Translations under genes and position numbers: made by a program | Assembly: GCA_020627825.1 (NCBI GenBank) | Contig: JAHDGD010000003.1 | Coordinates: 1-64,000, forward strand | DNA from: Saprospiraceae bacterium | GTDB lineage: Bacteria > Bacteroidota > Bacteroidia > Chitinophagales > Saprospiraceae | Direction: 5' to 3' | Length of the DNA stretch: 64,000 nucleotides | Shown here: piece after piece, positions 14,759 to 40,100 of the stretch | How the letters are laid out: every line of letters starts with the position of its first letter | Numbering within the stretch: position 1 is the first letter of the stretch | The notes under the pieces: model-generated | Database searches by the model: none | What the model was told of the DNA's origin: nothing | The model's input: the letters and a program-made list of their open reading frames with translations, nothing else

Positions 14759-15229
14759 TTATTTAAATGCATTTCTTACTTCTGCAAGCAATACGGTAAC
14801 AAAAGCTATCCCTAACAATGCAAGAGTAGAAACTATTCCAGCATTGATTAATTTACTTACTGTACCTTGAATATCATATTCTTCAAGAAGATTTGAAACT
14901 GTAGTTGTATTTTTATCTTCAATAGCAGAAAATAAAATAAAACCAAGTATAAGCAAAACAGCTGCTCCTATTACAAACTTGAGTGCACCCTTTGGGTTAA
15001 CAATCAATCCATAAATTCCTCCTAATAGAATTACAATTACAGCCAAAATGACTAGAAATGTTCCGATACCTACTGTGCTTGTAAATTGATCTACTGCGTA
15101 TAGGGCTGGAAAATCATCTGATGCAATACCATCAGCACCATTAATATTCAAAATGAAAATAATAGCTGAAATAATAAACCCAATAACGAAAGCAATCGTC
15201 GTACCTCTACGTACTAAAAAATTATACAT
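14759..15229 (-). CDS. Four-helix membrane protein of the exb operon, unknown
   Basis: 156 aa with four predicted membrane helices (about 9-28, 54-75, 82-104, 130-152) and almost no soluble domain. I do not recognise a named family. It is sandwiched between exbB (18 bp) and the first exbD (8 bp) in one transcription unit, as is usual in Bacteroidota gene clusters of this kind, so a structural or accessory role in the ExbB/ExbD motor is inferred. Confidence 0.72.
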   Translation of the reverse strand: MYNFLVRRGTTIAFVIGFIISAIIFILNINGADGIASDDFPALYAVDQFTSTVGIGTFLVILAVIVILLGGIYGLIVNPKGALKFVIGAAVLLILGFILFSAIEDKNTTTVSNLLEEYDIQGTVSKLINAGIVSTLALLGIAFVTVLLAEVRNAFK

Positions 15230-15247
15230 ATAATTTGGGTTTAAATA

Positions 15248-20346: not shown

Positions 20347-20829
20347 TCATTCCGCTACACCAAAATAATCCCAGTCAAGACCTGGAGGTTGTAAATATTT
20401 CTCTTTTAATTCTTTGACGTTATTTTCACGTCTTTTTATGTTACGAAGTAAGCAACTCCTTCCTACAGCACGACTAAATTTCACCATGTCTGCTTTTGTG
20501 ATTTTTTGCCCACCGTGTTCCAATACAAATTTTCCTCCAAGATTCCGTACATCTCCAGGAATTAGTTTTAAGTTCTTTTTGATATCATATTCATCAGGGA
20601 TTAAAAGCTCTATTCTTGGCATTGCTTTATCTTCATAGGTTTTCAGTAAGTTACCTACTTTAACCCCTACATTCATATTCATCACAACAATGTAAAAAAT
20701 TGCATCGTCACCGGTACGAACATAATCTCTTTCTGTATTGATAAGCATGAGAAAATCAAGACGTAGTGATTCCTCTATTTTAGGTGTATAACCAGTTTCT
20801 TTTATAGTGAGTCCTAAAACATATTTCAT
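20347..20829 (-). CDS. Hypothetical protein, end of a long operon
   Basis: 160 aa, no signal or membrane helix, mixed alpha/beta composition with a basic C-terminal half. I recognise no family or motif. It starts 3 bp after the lipoprotein gene stop and ends the 20.3-41.9 kb minus-strand run, facing paralogue B tail to tail (4-bp gap). Tight coupling to the lipoprotein argues that it is a real gene. Confidence 0.55.
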   Translation of the reverse strand: MKYVLGLTIKETGYTPKIEESLRLDFLMLINTERDYVRTGDDAIFYIVVMNMNVGVKVGNLLKTYEDKAMPRIELLIPDEYDIKKNLKLIPGDVRNLGGKFVLEHGGQKITKADMVKFSRAVGRSCLLRNIKRRENNVKELKEKYLQPPGLDWDYFGVAE

Positions 20830-20832: not shown

Positions 20833-21393
20833 CTACATTTTGTCCATGATCTCTTCCAATCTAGTTGCTAGAGCATCAATTTCTGTACGGAAAGATTCCT
20901 GAGTGGAACATTCTTTGAAAAAAGGATCGTTTTGTTTTTTAGCCATTGCAACAATGATTTTTCGATCACCCGTTGATTCAAAGTCATCAATAAACTTTTT
21001 TTGTTCTTCAAGAATCTGTTCACATGTCAACCCTTTATTCGGCGAAGAATCGATGATTTCTTTTGTCGCCTCCATTTTCATCTGTGCTTCTTTTTGCTTT
21101 TGTTCCTCGCTTTTTCCTTCAAGTTTAACATCTACTTTATTTTCCACTTTTGCTTCTTCTGCTACTTCTTCCTTTTTTGATTCGATGATCATTTTCTTTG
21201 CTAATTCATTCTGATCTATAAGCTCATCCATTTTCACTTCCACCTCAATCTCATCGTTAGCTGCATTTTCAATACTTTCCTCAATTTGAGACAAATCAAT
21301 ATCTTCAACTTTTTCAGGTGTTGTAGATGTAGAATCGGATTTACATCCAAAAGCAATAAAAACAAGTGCAATACATAATAGGCGAATAGACAT
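20833..21393 (-). CDS. Glu/Lys-rich lipoprotein, unknown
   Basis: 186 aa from ATG 21393, which opens a clean lipoprotein signal with F-G-C lipobox (residue 17). The longer start at 21426 would overlap the upstream permease gene and add a second hydrophobic stretch, so it is less likely. The mature region is acidic and Lys-rich with strong coiled-coil character (about 45-120), then a helical tail ending in LEEIMDKM. Function unknown. It follows the ABC permease by 10 bp, so an accessory role to that transporter is possible. Confidence 0.62.
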   Translation of the reverse strand: MSIRLLCIALVFIAFGCKSDSTSTTPEKVEDIDLSQIEESIENAANDEIEVEVKMDELIDQNELAKKMIIESKKEEVAEEAKVENKVDVKLEGKSEEQKQKEAQMKMEATKEIIDSSPNKGLTCEQILEEQKKFIDDFESTGDRKIIVAMAKKQNDPFFKECSTQESFRTEIDALATRLEEIMDKM

Positions 21394-21403
21394 ACAAAAG
21401 AAT

Positions 21404-22939
21404 TTAACGATTATAAATAAGATCACCAGGCGTTTTCAAAAGGATCTTTTTGATCGAGACAAATGATATATAACTTGAAAATAGTAAAATAATCAGCATG
21501 GTCAGAAAGATTCTATAATCAAATAAATCGATAACTGCTATTTTACTAAATCCTATTTCAAATGCCTTTATGATGAAACTGAAAAGATATCCTATAATAA
21601 TTGAAATTATAATGAATAGAATAATAATCTTGATGTACACAGAAATTAAGAACTTATTGTTCAATCCAAAAGCTTTCAACGTACCCAAATTATTTTTGAT
21701 TCCTTCAAGGTGAGTGGTTAATAAACTATTGATATAAAATACAATGGAAAGAATACTAAATGCTAAAAGAATGATGGCAATAAGACCTGTCAATCGACTT
21801 ACAAGTGCGAAGTTTTCTTTTGCTTCAACTTGATCCATACTGATTTCCATACCAAATCTAGGATCCGCTTTTAAAAATTCATTAAACCCACGAACTAAAT
21901 CCAACTTTTGAAAATTAAAAGCAAGGTGATGTGGATTATCTAAGTTCGAATAATCTCCTACATTACATTCCGATTTATATTGAACACGTGGACTCTTCAT
22001 AATCCCTGCTTTATCAATTGCAGGAGGAAACTTCCTAATTTCTTCGAATTCTAGAAAATCGAACAATGTAACAGTGAATTTATCTAAGATATTATCATCG
22101 TTCATTTTCACTTCTTCAAATTCAATATCAGCAAGTTCATATGCCGAAAAGAATTCTTTAAGTTTCTGTTCCGTTTCTTCTTTGGCTTGGCCTTTTTTAA
22201 ATTTACCAACCATTGTAATACGATTGACTGGATTCAATTGAACGAATCCCGTTTCATCGAAGCTCTTATTTAACAAATTAGAATAATGGGAAGACATTAA
22301 CATGTTACAGAGGTTTGGCATTTCTTTTACCACAGCAACAACCTCTGGGAAAAAGATAAACTCTCCAGCTACCATTGCAACTTTATCCAACGGTTTACGA
22401 ACATCATACCCAAGGTATTCAATTAATGCTTGCTCTTTTACAATAATGCCACATAATGGAAAATCGAATTCTTCGCCTTCTCTATACGTATATCCTTGCA
22501 CTACATTATTGGATTTGAGAACCTCTTTCATAAGATCTTCACCAATTCCAGCCGTTCTGGTTTTCAGTGTGTAAATCTCATTATCTTCAAAATTGATATA
22601 CTGTCGATGATCAATTTTATATTCTGTTATGTTCTTAAGATTGAAAGAGTCTCTTTTCGTTTTTTCCTCAAAAAAAAGTTGAAGCTTATTAACCTTATCT
22701 TTATAATGCGTAGCAATAGGTAGATTTACCCAATTGGTAAAGGGGTTATCCATTCTTTCTTTTAAGTATTTTATACCACCTACAGCATATCCCAATGCAC
22801 TTATTGTCAATGCGAGAATTAAGGAAAGTGCAATGATGGATCTCCTTGATTTTCCAGTCAGGTCATTGAACTCATTACTGAAAAATAACTTTTCGAAGTC
22901 ATTGTTTACACCAAACAACTTGTATAGTAATTGCTTCAT
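21404..22939 (-). CDS. ABC transporter permease, FtsX/MacB-like
   Basis: 511 aa. One N-terminal membrane helix (about 33-55), a large extracytoplasmic domain (about 60-380), then three helices (about 387-410, 433-458, 475-497): the FtsX/LolC/MacB topology. Such permeases with a LolD-type ATPase transmit force across the inner membrane to periplasmic partners or lift lipoproteins rather than pumping solutes. The ATPase gene ends 1 bp upstream. The downstream lipoprotein and upstream VWA, barrel and adhesin genes suggest a role in envelope assembly or signalling. Confidence 0.85.
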   Translation of the reverse strand: MKQLLYKLFGVNNDFEKLFFSNEFNDLTGKSRRSIIALSLILALTISALGYAVGGIKYLKERMDNPFTNWVNLPIATHYKDKVNKLQLFFEEKTKRDSFNLKNITEYKIDHRQYINFEDNEIYTLKTRTAGIGEDLMKEVLKSNNVVQGYTYREGEEFDFPLCGIIVKEQALIEYLGYDVRKPLDKVAMVAGEFIFFPEVVAVVKEMPNLCNMLMSSHYSNLLNKSFDETGFVQLNPVNRITMVGKFKKGQAKEETEQKLKEFFSAYELADIEFEEVKMNDDNILDKFTVTLFDFLEFEEIRKFPPAIDKAGIMKSPRVQYKSECNVGDYSNLDNPHHLAFNFQKLDLVRGFNEFLKADPRFGMEISMDQVEAKENFALVSRLTGLIAIILLAFSILSIVFYINSLLTTHLEGIKNNLGTLKAFGLNNKFLISVYIKIIILFIIISIIIGYLFSFIIKAFEIGFSKIAVIDLFDYRIFLTMLIILLFSSYISFVSIKKILLKTPGDLIYNR

Positions 22940-22940: not shown

Positions 22941-23768
22941 TTATTTGGTTAAAACTTGATTAATGAAATCATGTGGAGCATCTATTTGTTGGCCTTCTAT
23001 ATTCTTCCAAGTGTGATCAGCTTGGCGCACAAGATAATGCTTGTCCTCTATCCTTCCTACCGGATCAGTGATGGCATCACGTCTTGATAGTAATAAAATA
23101 ATATCTGCAAAATTCAATGCAAGTGGAATATCATGGGAAACAATCAATCCAGACCCCTGAAGATCTTCCAATATTTCTTTTAAAGTGGACATTAATCGAT
23201 GTGATGTATTTTTATCAAGATTCCCTGTTGGTTCGTCCCCAAATAATACACCGAAGTCACTTGCTATAGCTCTTACAAATGCTAAGCGTTGTCTTTGTCC
23301 TCCTGATAATTCGTAAATATTTCGATCAAAAAGAGATCGATCCAAATTCAATTTATCCATAAAGTGCATCACGCGTTCCTTAGAATCTTCAATTTTCTTC
23401 CCTTCCAATAACATTCTAACTGCCATATTCTCACCTGCAGTGAAATTCGGCATTAAATTGGTATTTTGAAAAATAAAACTAAAATGTTTTCTTCGAAATT
23501 GAGAAATGAAATCATTATCACGATTCCATATATCCCCAATATTATCATTCGTCTCTTGATTGGAAAAAATGATCTGGCATTCGTCTGCATTCTTGATGGT
23601 ATTATTCATCAATCCAAGAGTTTCAATAAGTGTACTTTTCCCTATTCCTGAAACTCCTAGTACAAAAACTAATTTTCCTTTTGGTATGTCTAAATCTTCA
23701 ATGTGCAGTACAGTTTGTCCATTACTGTATGCACATTCAAGATTTTTTATCTTAAAGACTGAATTCAC
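22941..23768 (-). CDS. ABC transporter ATP-binding protein, LolD/MacB-like
   Basis: 275 aa. Walker A GVSGIGKST (about 38-46), Q-loop in FSFIFQNTNL, signature LSGGQRQR, Walker B VLFGDEPTGNLD and the H-switch His in IVSHD are all intact. EPTGNLD is typical of the MacB/LolD/FtsE subgroup. The extra about 40 C-terminal residues after the core are unusual for the subgroup. It pairs with the permease gene 1 bp downstream. Confidence 0.92.
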   Translation of the reverse strand: MNSVFKIKNLECAYSNGQTVLHIEDLDIPKGKLVFVLGVSGIGKSTLIETLGLMNNTIKNADECQIIFSNQETNDNIGDIWNRDNDFISQFRRKHFSFIFQNTNLMPNFTAGENMAVRMLLEGKKIEDSKERVMHFMDKLNLDRSLFDRNIYELSGGQRQRLAFVRAIASDFGVLFGDEPTGNLDKNTSHRLMSTLKEILEDLQGSGLIVSHDIPLALNFADIILLLSRRDAITDPVGRIEDKHYLVRQADHTWKNIEGQQIDAPHDFINQVLTK

Positions 23769-23796: not shown

Positions 23797-26307
23797 TTAG
23801 AAGGTGTATTCTACTGGTACCCAGAAATAAACATTATTGGAAGTAGGATAACAAAATTCATATTTCTTCCCTAAGTCTTTTATTCTTTCCAGTTCTCTAG
23901 TCTTTTCTAGAAGCTCTTCAATTAGCTTAGCTAATTTATCATCAGGCATTTTCTTTTCGCTTCGAATATCTCCTATTTGAAAATCCATTCGATTACCGAA
24001 CTCAAGCCCTTCTTTCTTTACACCCTGCATCCTAGCAGCCAATTCTGCACTTGAAAACTTCTCTACTTCTTTTTTGGATAAATCATCATTACCTGTGAAT
24101 TGTTTTAGTAGTTCTGTAAATGTCGACATCAATGCCTCTCTTTGCTTATCAGGAGAACTATCATATGCAGAGGCTAAACGCTTTAAGTTGTCTATATAAC
24201 TCACCAAATCTTCATATGGCATAAATAGTACGTAAGAAAGTGAATTATTATCTGCTTTGCCCGGTTTTTTAGCTACATAAATTTCTTTGTACAAGTGATA
24301 TTTTTCATGTACAATTTTCTTTAAATCTTCTTCATCATATCCATTGCCTTTTTTTGCCTTATTTAACAATCGATATACCTCTCGAGCAATTGCTGGCGAC
24401 CATGTTCCAGTAGATTGATCCATTGCATTTCCACTCTCCGTCAAGCTGCTCATTTCATTACGGAATTGATCCACTTGTTGATAAATCTTTTCTACTGATT
24501 CTTCAATATACTTTTCTACATCAGAACCTTTGATCTTATTCTCAAAAGGCGCTTTAATTAATCGACCAAACGAAGGCCCATTTTCAACATTTAAGTCATT
24601 CCCATCTAGTAAATCAGCCATTGAAGGGTTCGCTACAGCAAATCCAGGGAAATACTCCTTCAACTGAACGTAATCTCTATGCTGTCGTTGTGCTGATTCT
24701 AGCATCATAGTTCTTAGTAACTTGTTATATGAAGCAGACTCTCTCGTTCTATAGCTTCTACACTGAATAGATACCATGTGCATATCAAGCTTATCTAAGA
24801 AATTCAATATATCATCACGTTCTACAAGTGTCTCATCTTTCGTTTCTTCAGCTTCGACACTTCTTACAATATTATTTTTGTAATCTCCATAATTACCAAT
24901 TGCTATAATAATATTCGATTCAGAAGTCGAAAAGCCAGCTTTTTTAAGCGTTTGTAATAAACCATAACGAGCTGAAGTCCAGTCGTCAGAATCTTTCCAT
25001 GTATCGAATTGTAATTGATCTACGAAGTTGATCACTTTTGCACGATCTTGTGTCAATTCTTGAATCTCAAATAATTTTCCTACTTCCTTTTCCGGTGTAT
25101 CACGATATACGGATGCTCCGTACTTGATTTTCACATTATCAGGAATATTATTTTCTAGGTTCGCCATTGCATTCATGATGGCTTGCTTATAATCATACAT
25201 TGATCTTGTTCCTTCGATCATGAACATAACATTAATAAACTCTCTTTTCTTATTATTCTCCTCAACATCAGCAGTTATGGTAGCCCATTTTACCTCATCT
25301 ATTTCACTTTGCACAAGATCCATCATAGATTGCGTATTAACTTCCGCAATCGCTCCTGTTCTATAATACTTCTCTGTATTATCGATCATTGGGAATCGAA
25401 CAACTTCACCTCTCAATCGTTTTCCATCACTTGCTAATTCAGCAGGATTTCTAGTGACAGGATCATTATTCCATAATACTTTATCTTCGATTATTTTACC
25501 AGAATTATAATATGCATTTGCACTACCTGGATCCATAAATCCTACAACACGCTTCGATTTATCATTTTTACGCTCATTGAACGCATCATCTTCGAAGTTT
25601 GGCTCAAGTGCAATTCTTGTATTCCATTTGGAAGCTTTCGCTTCTCTTACCCATCCTACTAAAGTCGTACTAATACTTCCACTAGGGCAACGACTATCTT
25701 TTCCTATAAGAAGACGACCATTCTCTCTTTTATAAACAAAGTAAAATTCGTAAATCGTTTTATTCCCTATCGTTTTGGAACCATTCGGAGAGGTGTATAT
25801 TTTCACAAGCTCTTTGTTATCGGAATTGATAACATTTGCCATATCCTTTACTTTATTAAGTAAGAATACTTTTCTATGAATAAGAGATCTTGGATCAATC
25901 AAGCTATTGTTCCATAAGAGTAGTTTGTCTTTTTTAATCCAACCCACATCGTGCTTCAAACTTTTTATTCCAAACTTTCCATCTCTTCTAGCTTTAACTA
26001 CTTTTACCCATTCCTTGTTACTATCGACGACATAAAACCAATCCCCAAAGTTTACGGTACTTTGCTCTCCTGATTTTGCATCGGGTTTAGTATAGGCTTT
26101 GTTATTATCTCGATCACTAATTACAATCCATGGATCATCACTTGATCTTTTATGCTTTGAAGTAAGAAATTCATTTAATTGATCTACATACTCATCATCA
26201 AAGTAATCCAGAGGACTTTCGTAAGCGATAGGTTTCCCTTCTATTCGCTGAGAATAGCTGACAGATAAAAAAGTAAAAAATGCTAGGGTCAATAATATTA
26301 TTCTCAT
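23797..26307 (-). CDS. VWA and SH3-like domain protein, TssR-like
   Basis: 836 aa from ATG 26307, which gives a signal peptide ending S-V-S-Y-S-Q. Residues about 45-115 and 160-230 look like SH3-type beta domains (DWFYVVD..KEWVKVVKA; GWIKKDKLLLWNNSL). The middle holds a von Willebrand A-like domain beginning NVMFMIEGTRSMYD; its metal site is EGTRS instead of DxSxS, so metal binding may be lost. The C-terminus is coiled-coil-rich. The layout and the GW..K.KLLLW element resemble TssR of the Bacteroidota type VI secretion system (T6SSiii). That assignment is from memory of the family and not certain. There are no other T6SS genes beside it. Confidence 0.6.
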   Translation of the reverse strand: MRIILLTLAFFTFLSVSYSQRIEGKPIAYESPLDYFDDEYVDQLNEFLTSKHKRSSDDPWIVISDRDNNKAYTKPDAKSGEQSTVNFGDWFYVVDSNKEWVKVVKARRDGKFGIKSLKHDVGWIKKDKLLLWNNSLIDPRSLIHRKVFLLNKVKDMANVINSDNKELVKIYTSPNGSKTIGNKTIYEFYFVYKRENGRLLIGKDSRCPSGSISTTLVGWVREAKASKWNTRIALEPNFEDDAFNERKNDKSKRVVGFMDPGSANAYYNSGKIIEDKVLWNNDPVTRNPAELASDGKRLRGEVVRFPMIDNTEKYYRTGAIAEVNTQSMMDLVQSEIDEVKWATITADVEENNKKREFINVMFMIEGTRSMYDYKQAIMNAMANLENNIPDNVKIKYGASVYRDTPEKEVGKLFEIQELTQDRAKVINFVDQLQFDTWKDSDDWTSARYGLLQTLKKAGFSTSESNIIIAIGNYGDYKNNIVRSVEAEETKDETLVERDDILNFLDKLDMHMVSIQCRSYRTRESASYNKLLRTMMLESAQRQHRDYVQLKEYFPGFAVANPSMADLLDGNDLNVENGPSFGRLIKAPFENKIKGSDVEKYIEESVEKIYQQVDQFRNEMSSLTESGNAMDQSTGTWSPAIAREVYRLLNKAKKGNGYDEEDLKKIVHEKYHLYKEIYVAKKPGKADNNSLSYVLFMPYEDLVSYIDNLKRLASAYDSSPDKQREALMSTFTELLKQFTGNDDLSKKEVEKFSSAELAARMQGVKKEGLEFGNRMDFQIGDIRSEKKMPDDKLAKLIEELLEKTRELERIKDLGKKYEFCYPTSNNVYFWVPVEYTF

Positions 26308-26400: not shown

Positions 26401-27915
26401 TTATAACTTAAATACAAGACCTATTCTAGCCCCATATCTTAATACTCCGATGTCTTTGAAATTTTGCTGTAACACACTTGGATTTTCTGCACCTGAAATA
26501 TCAGGTAGACCTGAAAGTTCAACACGCTCTCCTAAATGATTCGTCTCGTTTTGGAAATAAGGTAAGAAATTATAACTTACGTTAAGTCCAGCTTCAAGTG
26601 CCATATTGAAATTAAATTTGTAATGAAATAATGGAGTAACTTGAACAGCTGCACTGAATTTATTGCCTGTTTCTACTAATTCTTCATTAAAATCACTTTG
26701 TCCGAAATAGTCTTCTATAACATTTCCATTATCAAATTGATCTAAAACATATAATTCAAATCCTTCTGAAAAATTCGATCGATCTTCAGGAAATTGAACG
26801 AATGCTAATTCCCCAGTATAACGACCTGAAGAACTTATGGAATAGATTGGTACAGCTGCAACATCCAAAAAGATATCGTAATTATAGCTTTCCACAAGTC
26901 TCAGGCTTACGCCCAAAGGAATATAAATATCTATAACTTGTAATCTTTCACTCAATGTATTGACTTCCTCGAATAATATGGTACGAACAGTTGGAAAATC
27001 TTCTTCTGTAAATGTTCCTGTTGGAGTAAAACCTGCACCACCAATTTCAGCACGAATACCTGCTGCTGAACTAAATGACCCTCCGCCTGTAAATTCGTTC
27101 AGATTTGTCCTGAAATTATTAAAATTCAAGGAAAGTCCAGCCAATATATAAATGCTTTTCTTATTGTTGATACTTCGTCTAAAAACAGCATCAATACCAT
27201 ATGAGTTATAGCTTACAGGGATATTACCATCAAACCCTACTGCTAAATCGGATGTTGTTTTCGAAATATTACCAAGATGAAAATTTAGATCAGTTGAAAT
27301 CATCGTTGCAGATTCAACTTTAACTTTTGTAGCTTCACCTTTAATGCTGATGATAGATGGAGCAGATAAATCATATTCTGGTACCTCAATTACCATTTTC
27401 AGATTAATCGTTCGTCCATTATTTGGGTAATTAACAAACTTATTGTCTTTATCTAAACCATTAAACATGATCTTTTCAAATGATACAGTGACTTGATAAA
27501 ATCCACTTGAATCATAGGCAATTTCATCAAGATAAACTTCATTCAATTCAAACTTTACTCCTGTCCCTTGCATGTATTCATACACTTTATCGGCATAGGT
27601 TCCATAATTGATGTTTTGAGCATCTTTTTTAGCTAAATCATCGAATACTTCAGCAGATCCTGAAAAAATGCTGATAAAATCAGAATATGCATCATCTGAA
27701 AATTGCATATTATCATCTAGAAAGGATGCTACTTTTGCATACTTGTTCATGATATTTGTAGCCGATGCCATTATTTCATCTTTCTGTTCATCGGTGATAT
27801 CTGCTTTGATGTAAGACCCATCTTGGTATATTTTTATTTGGGCTTGACCCAAAAAACCTATGAGTAAAAAGAACATCAAAAAGAGCGGTTTAGTGTAGTG
27901 CATGTAAAATTTCAT
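26401..27915 (-). CDS. Outer-membrane beta-barrel-like protein, unknown
   Basis: 504 aa with a signal peptide (ending F-L-G-Q-A-Q). Residues 25-190 form a helical/mixed domain. From about 190 to the end there are alternating amphipathic strands (LNFHLGNIS, SIYILAGLSLNFNNF, IYIPLGVSLRL, LEAGLNVSYNF, GARIGLVFKL). The final Phe-x-Leu matches the outer-membrane insertion signal, so a C-terminal barrel is likely. It sits 12 bp after the small lipoprotein gene. Their N-terminal regions share a pattern (a predicted helix, then strand blocks around 'Y.Y..T..'), so they may interact. ATG 27903 is an alternative start. Confidence 0.7.
   Translation of the reverse strand: MKFYMHYTKPLFLMFFLLIGFLGQAQIKIYQDGSYIKADITDEQKDEIMASATNIMNKYAKVASFLDDNMQFSDDAYSDFISIFSGSAEVFDDLAKKDAQNINYGTYADKVYEYMQGTGVKFELNEVYLDEIAYDSSGFYQVTVSFEKIMFNGLDKDNKFVNYPNNGRTINLKMVIEVPEYDLSAPSIISIKGEATKVKVESATMISTDLNFHLGNISKTTSDLAVGFDGNIPVSYNSYGIDAVFRRSINNKKSIYILAGLSLNFNNFRTNLNEFTGGGSFSSAAGIRAEIGGAGFTPTGTFTEEDFPTVRTILFEEVNTLSERLQVIDIYIPLGVSLRLVESYNYDIFLDVAAVPIYSISSSGRYTGELAFVQFPEDRSNFSEGFELYVLDQFDNGNVIEDYFGQSDFNEELVETGNKFSAAVQVTPLFHYKFNFNMALEAGLNVSYNFLPYFQNETNHLGERVELSGLPDISGAENPSVLQQNFKDIGVLRYGARIGLVFKL
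27837..27853. repeat. Palindrome TTTGGG...CCCAAA, copy inside a CDS
   Basis: TTTGGG-CTTGA-CCCAAA within the signal-peptide codons of the barrel gene; a shortened relative of the dispersed TTTGGGC palindrome. Confidence 0.4.
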
Positions 27916-27927: not shown

Positions 27928-28530
27928 TTATTTTTGTGGAAGAATAGAAACGATATCAGCTGACTGATTCTTTATAGAAATTCGGAAAGTGATAACGATA
28001 GGGTATTCTATAGCTTCATCATAATAAAGTACTTGATTGTTTTTATTTAGTATATTGTAATTTCTTTTTATGGTTTCATAGGTGTAATAAAAATTGTAAT
28101 CATCTTCTTCAGCATCGTCTACCTTAGGATCAAATTGAGCGCCAGTTCCTGCAAAAAAAGTATTAATGTCAGGCGTATCAAACTCTGTTACAACTCCTTT
28201 TCGATTCATAAAGGAAGAAACAATGTCCGCATAGTAATCTGCTTCAATTAACTGTTGGTCTCCTTGTGGATAGAGTTGTATATCATTAAGGACCCGAGCA
28301 CCTGATTCAAATAAATTCTTAAAATCCCAAACAGATTGATCGGTAACTACTCCACTTGTGTCCGTTAAAGAAGCTAATGTTATGTATTGCAAGTAAGATT
28401 CGTATAAAATTCGCTTATTAGCAGCTTCATACTTTTTTACATTTTGCATATATAGCATTTCTCGCTTATCTGTACTCATGGTTGAAGTACTGCGTGTAGT
28501 TGAACAAGAAATGAATAAATACATCATCAT
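27928..28530 (-). CDS. Small lipoprotein, unknown
   Basis: 200 aa from the first ATG, which leaves only eight residues before the lipobox Cys (L-F-I-S-C), too short for a signal. Reading upstream in frame gives R-K-L-S-I-L before the Met run, so translation probably starts at CTG 28551, giving M-R-K-L-S-I-L-M-M-M-Y-L-F-I-S-C, a normal lipoprotein signal. The mature protein is mixed, with an acidic segment (VDDAEEDDYNFYY). Family unknown. It lies between the giant adhesin gene and the barrel gene in the same run. Confidence 0.65.
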   Translation of the reverse strand: MMMYLFISCSTTRSTSTMSTDKREMLYMQNVKKYEAANKRILYESYLQYITLASLTDTSGVVTDQSVWDFKNLFESGARVLNDIQLYPQGDQQLIEADYYADIVSSFMNRKGVVTEFDTPDINTFFAGTGAQFDPKVDDAEEDDYNFYYTYETIKRNYNILNKNNQVLYYDEAIEYPIVITFRISIKNQSADIVSILPQK

Positions 28531-28556: not shown

Positions 28557-31500
28557 CTATTGCTTTAATAATTTTATTAATTCTTGATTTCCATCCTCAT
28601 CTGAAATCTGCATTAAATACAGACCAGTCGCTTGATGGTCTAACCTAAGGGTAAAGGTCTGTTCAATCTCTTCTTTCTCAAATTGTCTTTCCATTACAAA
28701 TTGACCAGTCGTGTTGTATATTCTAAGTCGATAAAAACCCAATACATCTCCTTTTAGCTTTATATTAACCAAACCTGTAGCAGGGTTAGGAAATACTGTA
28801 TATTGAGTCCCTTCCTCTGGATTAACACCAAGCCCAGGAGGCTCTGTTGCATTAAAATATATTTCCGATACGCATTCTGTTACATCACAATAATTCACTT
28901 GTATCGATAATATATCATCTGTTTCCAATGGAGATCCTTTGATATAAAACCGATCCGTTTCACCTTCAATAGGCTGCCCATTTAGCATCCATTGATAACA
29001 GTAATTTTCATCATCACCAGTAAATGCATACAAGTCGCCAGGCCATCTTATAATTGAATCTATTGAAGGAGAACTTGCATCTAAAACATTTAATAAGATT
29101 TCATCACTGTTAGAACAAGTTAATAGATCACCACCAATTATGGTGTCTTTTTCTTGTTCAAGAAGAACACTTATGGTTGAATTCCCAGGAATATCTGGCG
29201 AAACATCCAATAGTACTTGAGATTTCCCTTCGATTGTGTGAAGTGTAGTAAATTCTTCAGGAGTAACCGTAAACGCACTTCGAAGAGCATCCAAGTTCAT
29301 ACGCATTTGAAAATCAAATTCATTTTTACATACATCAAAGTCATCTTCAAGATTTTCTAAATTGGTATTCGGATCTTCATAAATGAGAATTTGTTTTGGG
29401 TTTAAACCCAAACAAGTTGTATCAACACTAAAGCCTTGTGCAGAAGCATCTTTTTCAAAGATAAAAGCTGTTATGAAGTATTCTGTATTTGTCTCTAAAT
29501 TCGGACTGCTATTTACATCAAAAGTAAATACTGAACTATTCGAAGGAGCTTCACTATAGACTAAACTAGATTCTGTATACTGCTGAGTAGATTGATTAAA
29601 TACAGCAAAAACAATACGTTGGCCTTCAAAAATATCAGGCTCAGGGGTCAAGGTAAACTGAAATTCATCAGACGAACAAATGTATTGATCACCATTAAAA
29701 CTAATATTCTGTTCTTCAGCAATAGGCTGAAAAGAAACGCATGTTTCACATTGACCAGCTACAGATATGATTTCTGAATTCTCTTCATCACATCCTTCAT
29801 CCACTATAGTGAATGTGGTTGCCTCTCCATTCTCAAATATATCAGATTGGAAAGGGTTTTGTGTGACTGCCTCGCCATTAACAGAAACCATACCAGTACC
29901 ACCATTAAATAGGATGTCATATTGTACTTCAAAATTTTCATTATCCAAACATATAGTATCTACAACAAAAGTTAATTCTTCTAGAAATTCTACTTGAAAT
30001 GACGTATCAATTCCATCATTTTCACAACCTGTAGGAATGTCATTTATGTTCTCCGTACTTTTATATCCAACTAAATCAATAAATGTTACATCAACTACGG
30101 ATGGTAAATTCAATGGTGATGGCAGTTGAATGGTATCGCTTGCGCCATTAAAGATTTTGACATATGGATTTCCATCTAACTCATAATTCAAAACAAAATC
30201 ATCGGAATTAGATGGTATATCAAATTCAAAAGATAACTTTTCACCAAAACAAGCTTCTTTATCTAAAATAAAGTCATTAAAACTAGGTATCTGCTGGACA
30301 TTGGCATTTCTAACACCAGAAGTTCTTATACAGGCATTACTATAATTCACAAAGAATTGATATGGATAATTACCTGGTTCTTGAAACTCTACAATAATAG
30401 AATCAAGAAATTCTTCATCCGTCTTAAAAAATGTTTCTTTTATAATAAATTGAAGCCCAGTAACACCTGTTTGGATCTCATTCAATTCAATTAACTCATC
30501 TATATCAATACCGTCAATAATGAAATGCCCATCAATTGGTACAGTTGCAGTTTCACCTGGAATAGGATTGGCAACTAAAGCACTGCACGCTCCGGCGCAA
30601 AAGTTGTCTTGAACAGGAAAACTAATACTACAAGAACCATTTGCTGCAACATCCATGTTAACACAACTCCCCTCTGAACTACATCCACAATCATCAACTA
30701 CAACTAAACAAACATCAAAAAATCCTTCATCCATGAACTGATAGGAAAACAAATCATCTTCAGTGAATGTAGATTCAATAAATTCTCCATCTACGTACCA
30801 ATCGAATCTAAATATTGGACAATCTGTATCGCTAGAAGGATCAACCACTGAAAATTCAGCAGTAGAAAGTGCTTCAATAATTTCCACGTCAGTACTTATA
30901 CCTGCAACAGGAATTGTTTTGATATCTAATTCAATCAAATCGATTCCTTGACATCCATTCTCATCTTCGACAACAACACTGTAATTTGGTATATTAGGAT
31001 TTGCTTGTATTATAATCATAGATTCTTCTGATCCTGTATTCCAATTGTAAGAGACAAAAGATTCAGTCGTAGAAAGCGTAACCTCTGAATCTTCACAATA
31101 AGAAGATGCATCGCCTACAATTTGAGGAATAGGTAATGGATTAACCACTATTTCTATATTTTCTACAATTTCACAACCCACACTATTACTTATAATAGCA
31201 GTATATAATGTAGTTTGAGTAGGGCTTACTTCAACTAAAGCGTCATTTTGGACATCTTGTAATTCTTCATTTATCCACGTAATCGTTCCTGAAAAACCTT
31301 CTGCGATTAACGATATTGTTTGGCCTAAACATATTTGATTATCAGGATCGTTAGATGTTATAGTACCTTCTACATCTGAAAGAACAATCTCTTGTGTTTG
31401 AACAGTTTGACAACCCGTATCATTATCAATTACTGTCAAAATATAGGAACCTTCATAAGAAGCATCAACTGAATTCAATTCAATTGTTTCATTCATAAAA

Positions 31501-34145
31501 ATGCCTACTGGAGTTTCCCATGAAAAACTAAAATTCCCATCTCCTAAGTCTGTTGTTAATGTAAAATCATCTCCTTCACAGACTAGATCACTACTTACGG
31601 GCAATTTTATGATAGAAAAATCTAAATCTTGATTTACTTGTAGCGTAATACTCGCACTCATATAATCAGATGGTGTGCTGCAAAAATCATCTGAAATAGC
31701 TACAACCTTATACACTCCAAGTTCAGGATTCTCAATAAGAAGTGTATTTGAATTAGTAACTATTCCTTGAATAGGATCTCCACCATTGAATGTGTAGCTT
31801 GCCATTATAGTACCTTCTCCTTCCAAAAAGAATTCAATAGGGTCCGAATTTGTGGCATCACATGTTTCTTGGATAATATCAGTTACTGGAAACGTCACAC
31901 CCGGTATGCTTTTCTGTTCTATGAAAGTAGCTCCTGTTCCGACGCAGCTATTGAAATCAGTTACCATTACAGAATAATTTCCGCCAGCTGTAATATCAAG
32001 AGTTTCATTCATTGAATTATCGTTCCAGACATATTCTTGGTATTCCTGCTCAACCGACAAGGTCAATGTACTGCCTTCACAAATTTGTCCATTCTGAGGT
32101 AATACATTGGGATTTGGCAATTCAAAAATTACAAGCATAACAACTGTTCTACTGGCACTTTTACATTCTGTTATTGGGTCAAAAGTTTCAACGAAATAAG
32201 AATAGGTACCAGGATTGGTCTCCAAAGGAGTATAACTAAGTGTATTTTCACCATTCACTAATATATCACCTCCAGCTGCTTGACCGTACCAATTTGCAGA
32301 AAAACCTGTTTCAACACTGACACTAAGTGTTGGGTTTGGCTCACCAAAACATACTTGCCCATCAAAGGCTTGAAAAGGTGGTGATATTACTGGACATTCA
32401 CAATTTGGTGCTTCTATCTCGATTGTGTTAACACAATTATCTCCTGAAGTTATAGTTATTGTTACATTCTGTTCGGCTGGTATTTGTGTGATCATAGATC
32501 CACTTATATCCACGATTCCATGAGAAGAAGTAATATTGTCTGCATTCGTTGAGAAACTTATAGAGTATGAAAGAAGATCCGAAGAACATGACAATGAAAT
32601 AATGGAAAATTCAGCTAAGTCATTTACTTCTAGATCAATAGTTGTTGAATTCGAACAGTTGTCATCATCTGTATAGGTGAAGGTAATAGTATGTGTACCT
32701 ATACCTGCTATGACTGGATCAAATGTTCCGCTATTATCAGTAATTCCATTACCTGAAAATTCTCCCATTGGTCCCATGGGTGAACCTGAAAGTTGAACTG
32801 GATCATCATTTATACAGAATGAACCGGGGTCTGAAATACTCACAACTGGCAATTCCAAAACCTGAACATCAATAGAAGCAAAATCAGAACATCCGTTTTC
32901 ATCTTCATAAGTATATGTTATTGTATGAATGCCTACCCCTGCTACTGATGGATCAAATGTTCCATTTGCAGTATTTGTAATTCCATTTCCATCAAAAAGA
33001 CCACCAACAGGTGAACCTAACAAGTTTTCAGGAGATCCATCTATACAATAAGGCCCTGCTTCATTCAAAATTACCTCAGGTAATGAATTTACAGTAATGG
33101 TAACATCAGCAGTTGATTGGCATCCATTACTATCTGTAACTGTAACCGTATAAGTTGTTGTTGATCCAGGATTTACTGTTTTTACAGCTCCTGAACCCAA
33201 ACCATTATCCCATTCATAATCCGCTCCTCCAGATGCTGTCAAGACCACTTCATCATCCTTACAAATGACTCCATCATTATCTATATTTCCTGATGATTCA
33301 ACAAGACTTATATTAGCATTTGGTAAGGCATTTACAGTAAAAGTTTGAAGACAACATGCTTCGCTTTCACAACCTGTGTTATCAGTAAAATAGTCAAAAT
33401 AATAATCGAAACTACCAGGAGAATCTGTATCCATCGGGATAATCAATTCATTTGTAGGGCTAGTTTCTGTAAACTGAATTCCATCAATACTGTACACTAT
33501 GGTATATGGGGCAACACCTTCCAATATTGAAAATTTCAATTCAGCATCTTCTCCGAGACACACTGAAGGGCTGGAAATTTCCATAACACCACTTAATTCT
33601 TCAAAAACATTTATTGTAATTTGTTCAGAAGCTGAACACCCGGATCCAGGAGCAAATGTATAAGTAATTACATGACTACCTGGTCCTGCAAGAGAAGGAA
33701 CAAATAAACCTTGATTGGGATCTTCAATCCCAGGTCCTGAAAATTCGCCCCCCATAGGAGATGCATCTAAATTCGTTTCTTCATCATTTAAACAAAAAGG
33801 TCCAGCGGGAGGAAAATCAATAATAATCTCCTCTATCATAAAAACTTCTGAATACAAAACTGAGCCATCATTTTGAACTCCAACAGCAACCGTAATATCA
33901 GGAGTATTCCCGAGTGTCAAGGTCAACGAAGGTCCCATTGCAGTACCGTTATCTTGACCGTCATTCCATTCCCAATAATTTGCTTCAGGATCACAAACCG
34001 CAGTAAATTGCACATCATTTCCAGGACATAGTAAGCCCTCAACTACAATATCTGCACATTGCGCCATAACATTGGTACTTACCAAATGCCCTATTAAAAT
34101 AATTGACAGCAGTCTGATTAAAGTATTCAGCATTGTTCTATTCAT
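28557..34145 (-). CDS. Giant secreted adhesin-like protein with T9SS sorting domain
   Basis: 1862 aa. A signal peptide is followed by many 70-90-residue Ig/PKD-like beta units rich in paired Cys, Asp and Thr/Ser (recurring 'CS..TITVTDSNGC', 'G.GTHTITYTY.D..GCS'). The C-terminus is a T9SS type A domain (YTVFPNPATG..GLYLMQISDEDGN). SprB-like adhesins for gliding or attachment have this build; surface export by T9SS is inferred. It starts 14 bp after the 2591-aa paralogue. A block at about 30300-30645 is nearly the same in both. A palindrome copy is at 29395-29412. Confidence 0.85.
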   Translation of the reverse strand: MNRTMLNTLIRLLSIILIGHLVSTNVMAQCADIVVEGLLCPGNDVQFTAVCDPEANYWEWNDGQDNGTAMGPSLTLTLGNTPDITVAVGVQNDGSVLYSEVFMIEEIIIDFPPAGPFCLNDEETNLDASPMGGEFSGPGIEDPNQGLFVPSLAGPGSHVITYTFAPGSGCSASEQITINVFEELSGVMEISSPSVCLGEDAELKFSILEGVAPYTIVYSIDGIQFTETSPTNELIIPMDTDSPGSFDYYFDYFTDNTGCESEACCLQTFTVNALPNANISLVESSGNIDNDGVICKDDEVVLTASGGADYEWDNGLGSGAVKTVNPGSTTTYTVTVTDSNGCQSTADVTITVNSLPEVILNEAGPYCIDGSPENLLGSPVGGLFDGNGITNTANGTFDPSVAGVGIHTITYTYEDENGCSDFASIDVQVLELPVVSISDPGSFCINDDPVQLSGSPMGPMGEFSGNGITDNSGTFDPVIAGIGTHTITFTYTDDDNCSNSTTIDLEVNDLAEFSIISLSCSSDLLSYSISFSTNADNITSSHGIVDISGSMITQIPAEQNVTITITSGDNCVNTIEIEAPNCECPVISPPFQAFDGQVCFGEPNPTLSVSVETGFSANWYGQAAGGDILVNGENTLSYTPLETNPGTYSYFVETFDPITECKSASRTVVMLVIFELPNPNVLPQNGQICEGSTLTLSVEQEYQEYVWNDNSMNETLDITAGGNYSVMVTDFNSCVGTGATFIEQKSIPGVTFPVTDIIQETCDATNSDPIEFFLEGEGTIMASYTFNGGDPIQGIVTNSNTLLIENPELGVYKVVAISDDFCSTPSDYMSASITLQVNQDLDFSIIKLPVSSDLVCEGDDFTLTTDLGDGNFSFSWETPVGIFMNETIELNSVDASYEGSYILTVIDNDTGCQTVQTQEIVLSDVEGTITSNDPDNQICLGQTISLIAEGFSGTITWINEELQDVQNDALVEVSPTQTTLYTAIISNSVGCEIVENIEIVVNPLPIPQIVGDASSYCEDSEVTLSTTESFVSYNWNTGSEESMIIIQANPNIPNYSVVVEDENGCQGIDLIELDIKTIPVAGISTDVEIIEALSTAEFSVVDPSSDTDCPIFRFDWYVDGEFIESTFTEDDLFSYQFMDEGFFDVCLVVVDDCGCSSEGSCVNMDVAANGSCSISFPVQDNFCAGACSALVANPIPGETATVPIDGHFIIDGIDIDELIELNEIQTGVTGLQFIIKETFFKTDEEFLDSIIVEFQEPGNYPYQFFVNYSNACIRTSGVRNANVQQIPSFNDFILDKEACFGEKLSFEFDIPSNSDDFVLNYELDGNPYVKIFNGASDTIQLPSPLNLPSVVDVTFIDLVGYKSTENINDIPTGCENDGIDTSFQVEFLEELTFVVDTICLDNENFEVQYDILFNGGTGMVSVNGEAVTQNPFQSDIFENGEATTFTIVDEGCDEENSEIISVAGQCETCVSFQPIAEEQNISFNGDQYICSSDEFQFTLTPEPDIFEGQRIVFAVFNQSTQQYTESSLVYSEAPSNSSVFTFDVNSSPNLETNTEYFITAFIFEKDASAQGFSVDTTCLGLNPKQILIYEDPNTNLENLEDDFDVCKNEFDFQMRMNLDALRSAFTVTPEEFTTLHTIEGKSQVLLDVSPDIPGNSTISVLLEQEKDTIIGGDLLTCSNSDEILLNVLDASSPSIDSIIRWPGDLYAFTGDDENYCYQWMLNGQPIEGETDRFYIKGSPLETDDILSIQVNYCDVTECVSEIYFNATEPPGLGVNPEEGTQYTVFPNPATGLVNIKLKGDVLGFYRLRIYNTTGQFVMERQFEKEEIEQTFTLRLDHQATGLYLMQISDEDGNQELIKLLKQ
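29395..29412. repeat. Perfect 18-bp palindrome TTTGGGTTTAAACCCAAA inside a CDS
   Basis: TTTGGGTTTAAACCCAAA, an uninterrupted inverted repeat in the giant adhesin frame, resembling the dispersed palindrome family. Confidence 0.45.
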
Positions 34146-34159: not shown

Positions 34160-37100
34160 TTATTGTTTAATTACTTTTATTATTTCATTTTCCCCGTTTT
34201 CATTGAAAACCTTCAAAATGTATAATCCCGCAGAAAAATCATGAAGAGAAACTTGTTCTTTATGATTAACATTCTCTTTAATAAAGGATTTACTTGAAAT
34301 GAATTCGCCAGTTGTGTTATAGACCATAACGACAAATTCTCCTTCTTCAGAACCATTTAACTCCAGCGTAAACTGTCCATCGTTAGGGTTAGGATACAAT
34401 AAATATTCTATCTCTTTATCAGGAGTGACTAATTGTGGAGGACCGAAAGAATTGAAATAGATTCTTGATGTACATAAGGTCTCATCACAATCCCAAACAT
34501 CAATCCATAATATTTCACCATCCTCAAGTGGTTCACCTGCAATGTAAAATCTAGTGTCTTCACCAGCAATTATATCTTCATCTATACCCCATTGATAACA
34601 ATATTCTTCTGAATCACCCGTATAGGCATACAAGTACCCTGGCCATTGAATGATGCTATCTTTTGGAGGTGAAAATCCATCGTGGATTGTCAATACAAGA
34701 TCATCTTGATTTACACAATTGAACAATCCTTCAGAATTGTTGTAAACTGCAGTTTGCTGTAAGGTAAGTAAAAGTTGATTCGATGTTAAAGTATCAAAAC
34801 TGATTAATGCAATTGTATCCCCTTCAATATAAAATACATTTGTATTTTCTTCATCTGAAGAAAAGAATTCGTTAATTGTAACATTATCTATGTCAAAAGA
34901 AACTTGAAAGTCAAATTCATTACTACATATAATATCATCTTCTAAATTATTCAACTCTGTATCTGGTTCTGCAAGAAATGAAATAGGTTGATTCGATAAA
35001 CCATTACAGGTCGAGTCAGCCAAAAACACACCACCTTGTTCAGGAAAAATATAAGCTGACACAAAATAGGTCTCACCAGCCACAAATTCAGATGCGTCAT
35101 CTATTGTAAAAGAGAAAGATGTAGGGTTTGTTACATCTGCAATTTCTGTTAATATGATGTTGTTTTCTTTATATAGCACATTTGACGCTTCCTGTACAAC
35201 ATAGATTACATTCGCACCTGAAGGTAAATTTAATTCAGCTGGTTCTCCATTGGACTGTAATAATTCCAATTTTATCGTATCACTTTCGCAAGCAAAGCGA
35301 GTAATATCAACATCTAAGTCAATTTCTTGAGCTAACTCAGTAAATGAGATACAAGTCAAACATTCTGTATTTGCTTGTAAAATAATTGGAGGATAATCAT
35401 CTTCACAGCCTTCATCAACTATATTGAAAAAAGTAACTGAACCACTAGGAACTGGTGGATCAGACACAAATGTGTCAACTCCCATTAAATCTTGATCGTT
35501 AATCGAATACATACCTGTTCCACCACTTAATTCTATTTCGTATGTAACCTCTGTTAAATCAGTATTACATGAATCTGTCAATGCATAAGAAATTGAATCT
35601 AAGAAATAAATTTTGAATGGATCTTCATCAAATTCAGTTGAACATCCAGATGGAAACCCAGTTTGATCAACTGGATTATAATTTACAATAATATTAAATT
35701 GAACCTCTACAGAGTCTGCCATATTAGAAGGCGGATTTATTTCAATAAAATTATTACTTCCGAAAAAGTCTTTCGTCTGATTAACCCCATCAATTGTATA
35801 GTTTAATTGAAAATCCTCTTGTCCATCTGGTAATTCAAATTCAATTCTTGGTTTTTCTCCGAAACATGCTTCGGTATCAATAATAATTTCTTCGAATGTT
35901 GGAATAGTTTGAACTCTTGCAGATCGTACACCAGAAGTTCTTATACATGCGTTACTATAATTTACGAAGAATTGGTATGGATAATTACCAGGTTCCGAAA
36001 ATTCAACAATAATAGAATCTAAAAAAACTGCATCTGTCTTAAAAAAAGTATCTTTAACAGTAAATTCAAGACCAGAAACTCCTGTTATAGGTGCACCCAA
36101 AGTAATTCCATTATTTATTTCAATTCCGTCTATAATAAAATGTCCATCAATAGGTACAGTTGCTGTTTCTCCTGGAATAGGATTCGCAACTAACGCACTG
36201 CACTCTCCTGCACAGAAGTTTTCTTGTGCAGGAAAACTAATACTGCACGATCCATTAGGAGCTACATCCATTGTAATACACGCAGCTTCTGACAAACATC
36301 CACAATCATCTAGAATAAACAAACAAACATCAAAGAATCCTTCATCTGAAAATGTATAATTAAAAATTTGAGGTTCCTGATATGTTTCGATTCCTATACC
36401 TTCCACAAACCATTGATATTCTACAATAGGACAATCTGGATCACTAGTTGGTTGGACAACACTAAATTCTACTTCGGTTAATGCTTCTACTATCTCAACT
36501 GGTGTGCTTATACCTGTTTCAGGTCTCATTTTAACATCAATCATAACTTCATCAGAACCAATACATCCATTTTCATCAACCACTTCTACACTAAAAACTG
36601 TTTCATCGATATCCGCATCGAATGTTAATGTTGATTCTTCTGATCCATCATTCCATTCATATGAGACATATGATTCAGTAGTTGACAAAGTAACCTCAGC
36701 ATCTTCACAATAAGGATTGGCAGTCTCTATTACTGGCGTAGGCAGTGGATTCACTATAATTTCAATACTTACTTCAATTTCGCACCCAAAATTATTACTC
36801 AAAATGGCTTCATATACTGTAGTTTCGGTTGGGCTAACTGTTACCAATGCATCGTTTTGCACATCTTCGAGTTCTTCATTCAGCCAGGTTACATCTCCTG
36901 AGAATCCCTCGGCAATTAAGTTTATAGATGAACCTATACACACTTCATTATCTGCATTACTTGAACTTACAGAACCTTCAACAACTGATAAAACAATTTC
37001 TTGAGAGACTGTAGATTCACACCCCGTATCTTCATTTGTTACAGTACACGTATAGGTACCTTCATTTGCTGAACTTGCATCATTAAATGTAATTTCATCA

Positions 37101-40100
37101 GTGTTAAATGTTCCTAAAGGTGTTTCCCATAGATATGTGTAGTTACCAGCTTCTATGTCAACAGATAATGTAAAACTTTCTCCATTACATACAAGATCTG
37201 CTGCAATAGGTGTCTTCACAATTGTAAACGATGGGGATTCTAGTTCAACAACCTCAATAGAATTACTCGTATAGCCATCATCTGTACTACAATTATTCGT
37301 TGTATTGGTAATGGAAACGACCTCATATACACCAGGTGCAGGATCTACTATGGTAAGTATATTTCCAGAAATATTTTCAGTTATGACATTTCCTCCATCA
37401 ATCGTGTACCCTACTTCAAATGGACCAGATCCTGAAATTTGGAACGTAATATCAGGTACATCTAATCCTTCACAATACGTTACTTCTTCATCAATCACTG
37501 GATCTATCACCTCTGGTAGATCAATAACTGTAACGGTCACTTGATCTGCTTCAGAACAACCATTATCGTCTGTAACAATAACTCCATAATTACCAGCTTC
37601 TGTGACTTCAAGTGTTGCATTTGTAGAATTATCTGTCCACAAATACTCAGCATAAAGTTCAGTTAAACCAAGTGTTAAGGTCCCATTTGCACATATTTCA
37701 CCTCCTTCAGGTGTAATTTGAGGCTCTGGTAAGGCATTAATAATAAATACCAATGTATCTGAGTCGCCTTGACAATCACTAACGGGGTCATAAGAAAATA
37801 CAACATAATTATAGATACCTGGATCAGTAAATGTTGGTACATATGTTAATGTATTTTCTCCCATTGGTAAAGGTGTTGAGCTGCCCTCTAAGTACCAATT
37901 CGCTGATAATCCATTTTCAACTGTTACTGATAATACAGGATTGTTATCTCCAAAACAAATTGCAACTGGATTCATGTCTGGCATGGGCTTTGCTATTTCT
38001 TCACATTCACAATCTTCAGCAATAACACTTTGAGTAAATACACAGTTGTCAATAGAAGTAATTGTTACTATTACATCTTGGTTAGCTGGTATATTTTGGA
38101 TTTCATTTCCAACAACAGTTCCGAAATCAGATAAAACTGTTGATGCATTTGAATTGAATATTATTGTATAAGTTAATAAGTCTTCAGAGCACACTTGGTC
38201 AACAACACTAAATTCTGCTAATGGATTAATTTCTATATCAATCGTTGTAGAATTCTCACAATTATTTCCATCCAAGAATGTATAAGTTACAGTTGCTGTA
38301 CCTACACCAACTACAGATGGATCAAATGCACCAGCTGAATTGGTAATTCCATCACCAGTAAATATTCCACCTGAAGGATCACCCATCAATTGTGTAGCTG
38401 GATCTGTTACACAAAATTCTCCAGGGTCTGTTATGCTGACATCTGGTAAATCATTAACAACGATATCGATCATATCATCGTTTTCACATCCATTCTCATC
38501 AATATAAGTATAAGTAATCGTGGTGGTTCCTACACCAGCAATAGTAGGGTCAAAAGTCCCTGATGACGAATTCGTTATACCATCTCCACTGAATGTACCA
38601 CCTGATGGAAGTCCTGTCAAATCAACAGGATCAGCATCTACACAAAAAGGACCTGCAGCTGCTAAGTTAACAGAAGGTAATGCATATATTTCAAATTCAA
38701 TTTCTAGTCTTGGGATACTAACGCATCCACTCACAGGATCAACAGTTTCTACATAATAAGTATATTCGCCCACAGCAGTAACGTCCGGGGTAAGCGTATT
38801 TACCATACTTATTGGTGTTCCATCCGAAGGCTCTTCAAGATACCAATTTACATTTAATCCACTAGGCACTGAAACAGATAATTCTGGGTTTTGCGAACCA
38901 AAACAAGCATCTTGGTCTGTGCTAGTATTTGTAGCTCCTTCAATATCAGGACATAAGCAATTTGGAGCAACTACAAGAGTTGAAACAATACAGTTTTCCG
39001 AAGATGTTGCTGTGATTGTTACATTATTCATGGTATCTATTCCTACCACCATATTTCCTGAAACAGTACCAAAGTCGCTTGTTACGGTTCCATTTGAGGT
39101 AAATGGAACACTGTAAGTTGATAAATCTGCTGAACACATTACCCCTTCTGTATCAATATCAAGCGTTGGTAAATCATTAACTGTAATGGTTGTCTCCGCT
39201 GTGGATTCACATCCCTCGGAATCGGTTACCGTAACAATATAGGTTGTAGTAGAACTCGGTGAAATAGCTTGAACAGGATTTGTCCCCAATCCCTCATTCC
39301 ATTCATACATTACTCCTCCACTTGCTGTTAAAACTACGTCATCTTCATTACATATAATACCATCATTTGATGATGCTCCAGACGTTTCAGCAACATCAAT
39401 CATTGCATCTGGTAATGGATTGATCACAATAGCAACTTCCGCAGTTCCTGTACACATAGATGCCATATCAGTAACTGTCAAAGCATACGTACCTTCATCA
39501 GATTCCATTGCATTCATTACAGTTACTAACTCCGTTGTTGATACTTGACTACCATCCAATTCCCAGTCATAAGAATAATCACCTGTTGCACCTGGCAAAC
39601 CAGTTATAGATAAAATAAACGTTTCATCTTCACAAAACTCTGTCTGCTGTGGAGATACCATGATCATAGGCATAGGAGATAAATTTTCCACAACTGTAAT
39701 ACTACTACTCATATATCCTCCAGCAGTCGAACAAGCGTCCATATCGGTAATAGAAGTAATAACATATACTCCTGGACCTGGATCAGCGAGCGTAAAAGGA
39801 CTCGTCACATTTGTTACAACTGTTGGATTAATACCATCCACTGTGTATGTTACTGAAAAAGGTGATGCACCGCTTATTTCAAATGTAACATCCGGACCTG
39901 TATCTGCTGAACAATATTCTAATGTCTCATTTGCAGCAGGCATAGTCACCTCTGGAGCATCGTTTTGAACAACCGTAATGCTATTGCTCATATAACTAGG
40001 ATCTGTCATACAGCCATTTGCATCTAGTATAGACGTTACTATATACTCTCCAGCAGCAGCATCAAAAATGGTTATAGGACTTGAAACACCAGAAAGTGAA

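Follow-up and report, generated by a model that had tools for sequence, protein, structure and literature searches.

A TssR-family protein tied to an ABC/FtsX/outer-membrane operon in Saprospiraceae, mostly in genomes where no type VI secretion system was found

The closest described relative of the protein considered here is TssR of the Bacteroidota type VI secretion system (T6SS) T6SSiii, an essential lipoprotein of the TssNQOPR complex according to the available part of a 2024 study (PMC10781749). In B. fragilis, the same part reports, TssR carries a lipoprotein signal (SPII), binds TssN, TssO and TssP, and is required for T6SS killing (PMC10781749). That study sought the ancestral system of the T6SSiii membrane complex; in the part available it found neither an independent locus for the whole set nor any genome in which the membrane complex was complete and other T6SS genes were missing, and its abstract states that homologues of the membrane complex were not detected beyond T6SS loci (PMC10781749). 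Here we describe a TssR-family protein encoded at 23797..26307 on the minus strand of a 64,000-nucleotide stretch of a Saprospiraceae genome (contig JAHDGD010000003.1, positions 1 to 64,000; hereafter the window), in an operon with an ATP-binding cassette (ABC) ATPase, an FtsX-type permease and a putative outer-membrane protein, and we show that TssR in this family is tied to that operon and that most genomes with TssR yielded neither TssC nor TssN. A second group of comparable systems comprises MacB, LolCDE and FtsEX, which are mechanotransmission ABC systems.

The open reading frame (ORF) encodes 836 aa between an ATG at 26307 and a stop at 23797; a TTG at 26340 offers an alternative upstream start that would give 847 aa, and the plus-strand reading of the same interval holds 46 stops. 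Its layout comprises a signal peptide without lipobox, an N-terminal barrel (residues ~51-131), a second domain (~156-222), a VWA domain (Pfam match 347-479, fold match ~337-653) and a C-terminal domain (~698-834), the same domain order as in TssR of T6SSiii (PMC10781749; PF17643, PF20780, PF20781, PF20782). Matches exceed the Pfam cut-off for the TssR N-barrel (8.4e-15), TssR_VWA (6.3e-12) and TssR_C (6.1e-8), and the TssR_M match (3.8e-4) lies below it; among 42 aligned relatives the corresponding profiles match 42 (N-barrel), 36 (VWA), 31 (M) and 28 (C). An AlphaFold2 model built from 42 sequences has a mean pLDDT of 87.5 and a pTM of 0.73, and its residues ~337-653 (model residues 332-648) resemble integrin beta I-like domains (best match 6om1_F, Z 18.0, root-mean-square deviation 4.9, 225 residues aligned); these Foldseek/VIA comparisons inform on residues ~337-653, the barrel and C-terminal parts being barely covered. 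A profile search found no solved TssR structure, its top match being the VWA domain of collagen VI (4.4e-7). The preliminary description of this stretch had proposed a TssR-like VWA protein at this position and suggested a profile search with the TssR family as a check. The outcome named there as refuting, a lack of significant matches to TssR profiles, did not occur, and with these Pfam matches and an N-barrel in every aligned relative the resemblance is homology rather than chance. The window ORF is a true TssR homologue with an integrin-like VWA fold, and its location is predicted to be the periplasm.

Unlike TssR of T6SSiii, which adjoins TssP, TssO, TssQ or Hcp, the window TssR lies next to an ABC/FtsX pair and OMPx. 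The ATPase (22941..23768, minus; 275 aa) is of LolD/MacB type and has intact motifs, with Walker A GVSGIGKST, signature LSGGQ and Walker B LFGDEP; its ABC_tran match (1.2e-22) is above cut-off, and the models nearest to it are generic LolD/bacteriocin/MacB-type ones, none of which reaches its curated cut-off. The FtsX/MacB-like permease (21404..22939, minus; 511 aa) matches FtsX above cut-off (4e-7) and, in a sequence search of the PDB, gives only a weak FtsX match (E 0.32). Hydropathy places its hydrophobic segments at ~33-56, 375-409, 425-465 and 467-488, with a weaker peak at 186-205, a layout of one transmembrane segment, ~318 aa, and three further transmembrane segments. Directly upstream of TssR, OMPx (26401..27915, minus; no Pfam match) combines an N-terminal domain with an outer-membrane beta-barrel; its model (mean pLDDT 77) resembles OmpA-type barrels (8.5e-6, TM by target 0.62), a likeness that is not a family assignment. 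Like MacB, LolCDE and FtsEX, the pair joins a LolD/MacB-type ATPase to a four-segment permease of FtsX type whose extracytoplasmic part is large. It differs from them in its operon partners, which are TssR and OMPx; a MacA-like adaptor, TolC or a Lol carrier was not recognised there.

To assess how constant this association is, 363 genomes of the host family, at least 80% complete and mostly metagenome-assembled genomes (MAGs), were surveyed by profile and alignment matches, which found TssR in 35, TssC in 32 and the FtsX-type permease in 32. A TssC alignment (A2) and TssN served as T6SS markers because the Pfam VipB model (PF05943) had missed the T6SSiii of the host genome. TssR and the permease occur together in 31 genomes, TssR alone in four, the permease alone in one (G556, at a contig edge) and neither in 327 (Fisher 2e-39, with the genomes not independent). 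In all 31 genomes with both, the permease gene shares contig and strand with TssR and lies downstream of it at a distance of 803-2305 bp. TssR, ABC and FtsX genes are contiguous in 20/20 fetched family loci, apart from an 83-aa ORF lying between them in L131, an ABC split into two ORFs in L137 and an FtsX cut at the contig end in L138, and in 18 of these 20 OMPx is the next gene upstream of TssR. Moreover, distances among the TssRs track those among the FtsX permeases across 35 loci (Mantel r 0.88, reached by 0/5000 permutations), as expected of a unit inherited together.

TssR and TssC are both present in 14 genomes, TssR alone in 21, TssC alone in 18 and neither in 310; for the permease and TssC the corresponding numbers are 11, 21, 21 and 310. 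TssN was found in none of the 21 genomes with TssR and without TssC, 19 of which have a listed completeness of at least 90%, in all 14 with both (one below cut-off), and in 15 of the 18 with TssC only. TssR in Saprospiraceae thus belongs with an operon for an ABC/FtsX pair and an outer-membrane protein, and most of the genomes concerned gave no sign of a T6SS. The preliminary description had suggested that TssR might have been recruited by another surface system, and recruitment or sharing fits both this operon and the 21/35 TssR genomes in which neither TssC nor TssN was found. The presence of TssR in T6SS-negative genomes contradicts the sentence on homologues in the abstract of PMC10781749, for TssR only; the statement on complete sets in the available part of that study is left as it stands.

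Three gene-map arrangements emerge when relatives are included. In the first, TssR is accompanied by ABC and FtsX as separate genes; in the second, these two are fused; in the third, a T6SS-type TssR adjoins TssO/TssP and has no ABC. Loci of the second kind mostly have T6SS genes and a TssP-like gene alongside. A contig scan for TssR relatives yielded 28 loci; among 25 examined genomes of relatives, all have a TssR match and 16 have TssC, the other nine being G001 (51% complete), G016, G041, G061, G062, G065, G067, G069 and G076. TssN exceeds its cut-off in 14 of the 20 genomes derived from these loci and is absent from the same six as TssC; the remaining genomes agree, G016 having only a weak match (0.02, below cut-off). 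In a phylum sample of 392 genomes, TssR profiles match 19 at 1e-10, some by the VWA part only. Thirteen full-length loci outside the family were inspected with 1.5-kb flanks: 12 show a TssP-like gene and lack an ABC/FtsX match, and one (L085, G116) has ABC and FtsX, as confirmed in a 20-kb stretch (L142). In an unrooted tree of 66 TssR sequences, drawn with a midpoint root for display only, TssRs with a separate ABC form one clade (33 rows, support 100/99), T6SS-type TssRs without ABC form another (21 rows, support 100/100), and the 11 rows with fused ABC-FtsX lie between the two groups. The window TssR, unlike TssR of T6SSiii, belongs to the first of these well-supported clades.

TssR also occurs in records labelled Cloacimonadota (L033 4932-9947, with two TssRs, ABC and FtsX) and Neomarinimicrobiota (L031), which may be binning errors, and no claim on other phyla is built on them. 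In addition, shorter second copies of TssR (421-514 aa) are found at L017 5650-7194, L037 12300-13844, L038 8137-9588 and L041 12687-13952; the one in L017 has barrel, second and C-terminal domains without a VWA match and adjoins a full TssR with VWA.

Metal sites and signals were compared across 71 aligned TssR rows. The preliminary description had pointed to EGTRS as a non-canonical start of the metal ion-dependent adhesion site (MIDAS). The motif is present, with G366 and T367 in invariant columns of a five-sequence alignment, but it is no anomaly: the first MIDAS residue is E in 25/27 Saprospiraceae rows and Q in the other two, and D-x-S/T-x-S/T occurs in 5/35 rows with separate ABC, 3/14 with fused ABC, 0/1 (L035) and 0/21 of T6SS type. 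As judged from aligned sequences, E at the first position is a trait of the clade, and the T6SS members of the family also lack the canonical motif. On these distributions we reject the idea that a TssR with a non-canonical MIDAS is broken or special. A lipobox-like motif (regular expression) is found in 0/35 separate-ABC rows, 1/14 fused-ABC rows, 0/1 (L035) and 13/21 T6SS-type rows, and so is not universal even in the T6SS-type clade; the window TssR, unlike that of B. fragilis, is among the rows without it.

Taking these observations together, we consider that the window protein is, with a probability of roughly 60%, a TssR-family subunit that sits in the periplasm and belongs to a conserved, T6SS-independent envelope module; it is best read as kin to TssR of T6SSiii and not classed as one. 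By analogy with MacB, LolCDE and FtsEX, ATP hydrolysis by the cytoplasmic ATPase would move the permease's large periplasmic part, and this might in turn pull or clamp TssR through its barrel or VWA parts. TssR could then relay the movement to the outer-membrane barrel, and hence to surface proteins exported by the type IX secretion system (T9SS), with display, release or opening (for a contractile machine) as possible outcomes at the surface. On this view, T6SSiii would deploy the same linker, as its own TssR, in the periplasmic part of a contractile machine.

Several points weigh against this reading. The permease was not seen in 4/35 TssR genomes, namely G016 (cut by a contig edge), G554, G596 and G653. 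TssR is positively associated with TssC, being present in 14/32 TssC genomes (odds ratio 11.5, p 6e-8). The large surveys scored the best 2-4 candidates per genome, and the surveyed genomes are related and mostly MAGs, so that the counts are not independent. Finally, the host itself has a T6SSiii without another TssR; this and the association with TssC leave room for a T6SS role of the window protein.

One may argue that the window gene is the TssR of this T6SSiii, encoded apart from it, and that the ABC operon is a T6SS accessory. The host genome (G000; 4.46 Mb, 297 contigs, listed as 96% complete) carries on contig C109 (L052/L053) a T6SSiii with TssN (3.3e-65), TssC (4.3e-227), TssO (9.8e-23) and TssB/D/E/F/G/H/I/K/P-like genes. 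It looks complete apart from TssR; a 1465-aa ORF and several Hcp-like genes accompany it. The absence of Tss genes nearby, as first described, holds for the window, where the HMMs (hidden Markov models) built here recognised no T6SS gene besides TssR, and does not extend to the genome, in which the suggested search for T6SSiii genes found TssN, TssO and a TssP-like gene on C109; a conclusion that this genome has no T6SS, drawn from the lack of a VipB match over cut-off, was likewise overturned by the TssC alignment and the TssN profile. No TssR was seen at the C109 locus, and a TssR profile search of the genome returned the window ORF, its sole TssR-type match, and one VWA-only stretch (8.3e-8). 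The available part of PMC10781749 describes split T6SSiii loci as common. Among 21 genomes whose flanks were annotated (a set outside which L132, L133, L138 and L139 fall), four have T6SS core genes near this operon, on the contig that carries it (G018, G626, G767, G775). Furthermore, Chitinophagales-type loci (L027, L030, L034, L036, L037, L038) share with the window the order of TssR followed by ABC and FtsX, with OMPx upstream, and differ from it in having ABC-FtsX as one ORF, a TssP-like gene and T6SS genes alongside. Nevertheless, the clade of the window TssR is present in the 21 family genomes without detected TssC or TssN, and it shows lipobox-like signals in 0/35 rows, against 13/21 in the T6SS-type clade. 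A T6SSiii without a recognisable TssR is also nothing unusual, because TssR could not be identified in 31% of T6SSiii in the available part of PMC10781749 and 18/32 TssC genomes here have no TssR match. We therefore regard a TssR encoded apart from its T6SSiii as unlikely.

In a broader and equally doubtful proposal, the TssR-ABC/FtsX-OMPx module would be an older, T6SS-independent envelope machine and the source of the T6SSiii TssR, still serving as an ATP-driven envelope gate or dock, for T6SSiii in some genomes and for extracellular contractile injection systems (eCIS) in others. It derives from the series seen in the unrooted tree, running from separate ABC (mostly no T6SS) through fused ABC beside T6SS to T6SS-type TssR without ABC, and from the restriction of an intact D-x-S/T-x-S/T to ABC-linked TssRs.

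A further possibility is that the module is an envelope partner of eCIS, acting as dock, gate or release device much as TssR does for T6SSiii. The right end of the window (62666-63184) holds the start of an eCIS cluster, which continues into the adjoining stretch L020 (G000:C253:64001-83900), with Pvc16_N (2.9e-22), sheath, tail tube (5.6e-38), spike and tape measure (1.3e-70) genes, and eCIS structural genes lie ~15-90 kb from TssR on its contig in five of the 21 annotated genomes (G000, G141, G235, G591, G589). Two separate TssR subclades have a common order of eCIS, eCIS-core effectors/PAAR, ubiquitin-like operon and TssR module. That operon (47632-57307, minus, in the window) encodes an ion channel (1.8e-36), a protein with VWA and FHA domains, JAB (1.5e-8), an E2 (UQ_con, 1.8e-8), a 94-aa ubiquitin/YukD-like protein, E1/ThiF (5.9e-52) and an nSTAND ATPase (1.3e-36), and an E1-Ubl-E2 set stands near TssR in 7/21 genomes (G000, G141, G235, G589, G586, G507, G508). 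However, 12/21 show neither eCIS nor T6SS within the limited stretches fetched, no whole-genome eCIS search having been made, and AlgoCIS particles are described in the available part of PMC8894135 as free in the cytoplasm and never membrane-anchored. A link between the module and contractile injection systems is suggestive only, and a dedicated eCIS partner seems quite improbable. Finally, TssR might be a mere periplasmic scaffold for giant adhesins, with the ABC pair an ordinary lipoprotein or peptide exporter co-transcribed by chance, as the T9SS-tailed giants and lipoproteins of the operon and the generic affinities of the ATPase might suggest, but this is very unlikely given that the TssR-permease pairing is kept in 31/31 genomes, is found in fused-ABC relatives, covaries in distance and is more constant than the giant genes.

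The proposed T6SS-independent envelope module has several implications. The ABC/FtsX operon offers a concrete candidate partner machine for TssR and a lead on the origin of this part of T6SSiii, and the origin of the T6SSiii membrane complex becomes testable in T6SS-free bacteria. A TssR profile match alone is not evidence for T6SS. In addition, the operon points for the first time to a possible partnership between TssR and an ATP-driven mechanotransmission transporter; our literature search found no paper joining TssR, an ABC transporter and type VI secretion.

The operon as a whole, nine genes on the minus strand with intergenic gaps of -23 to 93 bp, runs in the order of T9SS-tailed Ig/PKD giants, lipoprotein, OMPx, TssR, ABC ATPase, FtsX permease, lipoprotein and 160-aa protein. 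The giants are surface proteins of 2591 aa (34160..41935, Ig-like domains; sorting domain 1.3e-10) and 1862 aa (28557..34145, Ig-like/PKD-like domains; Por_Secre_tail 9.3e-12), each with a T9SS C-terminal sorting domain. They are followed by a small lipoprotein-like protein (27928..28530, …FISCST…) related to the N-terminal part of OMPx. After FtsX come another small lipoprotein-like protein (20833..21426, …FIAFGCKS…), whose HMM matches the gene after FtsX in 10/20 fetched relatives, and the terminal 160-aa protein (20347..20829), which has no Pfam match and occupies the same position in G001, G141, G235 and G742. Upstream of the giants, two PKD-domain lipoprotein-like genes (42146-44011 and 44264-45988, minus) are linked to the operon more weakly, with gaps of 210 and 252 bp. 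As possible counterparts of TssP, the PKD lipoproteins of the operon were set against it in a profile comparison, which aligns the PKD domains of the two (probability 98.8, E 5e-17); this match is not specific, because PKD giants also joined the TssP model on iteration. Further downstream of the module, the minus strand of the window carries a CotH-kinase/lamin-tail protein (10412-13006), whose C-terminal sorting domain match is below cut-off, and an ExbB/ExbD (TolQR-type) gene set (13727-15976). In G141, G235 and G742 the module is followed by unassigned ORFs of 155-261 aa, which are similar in size to the genes of this ExbB/ExbD set.
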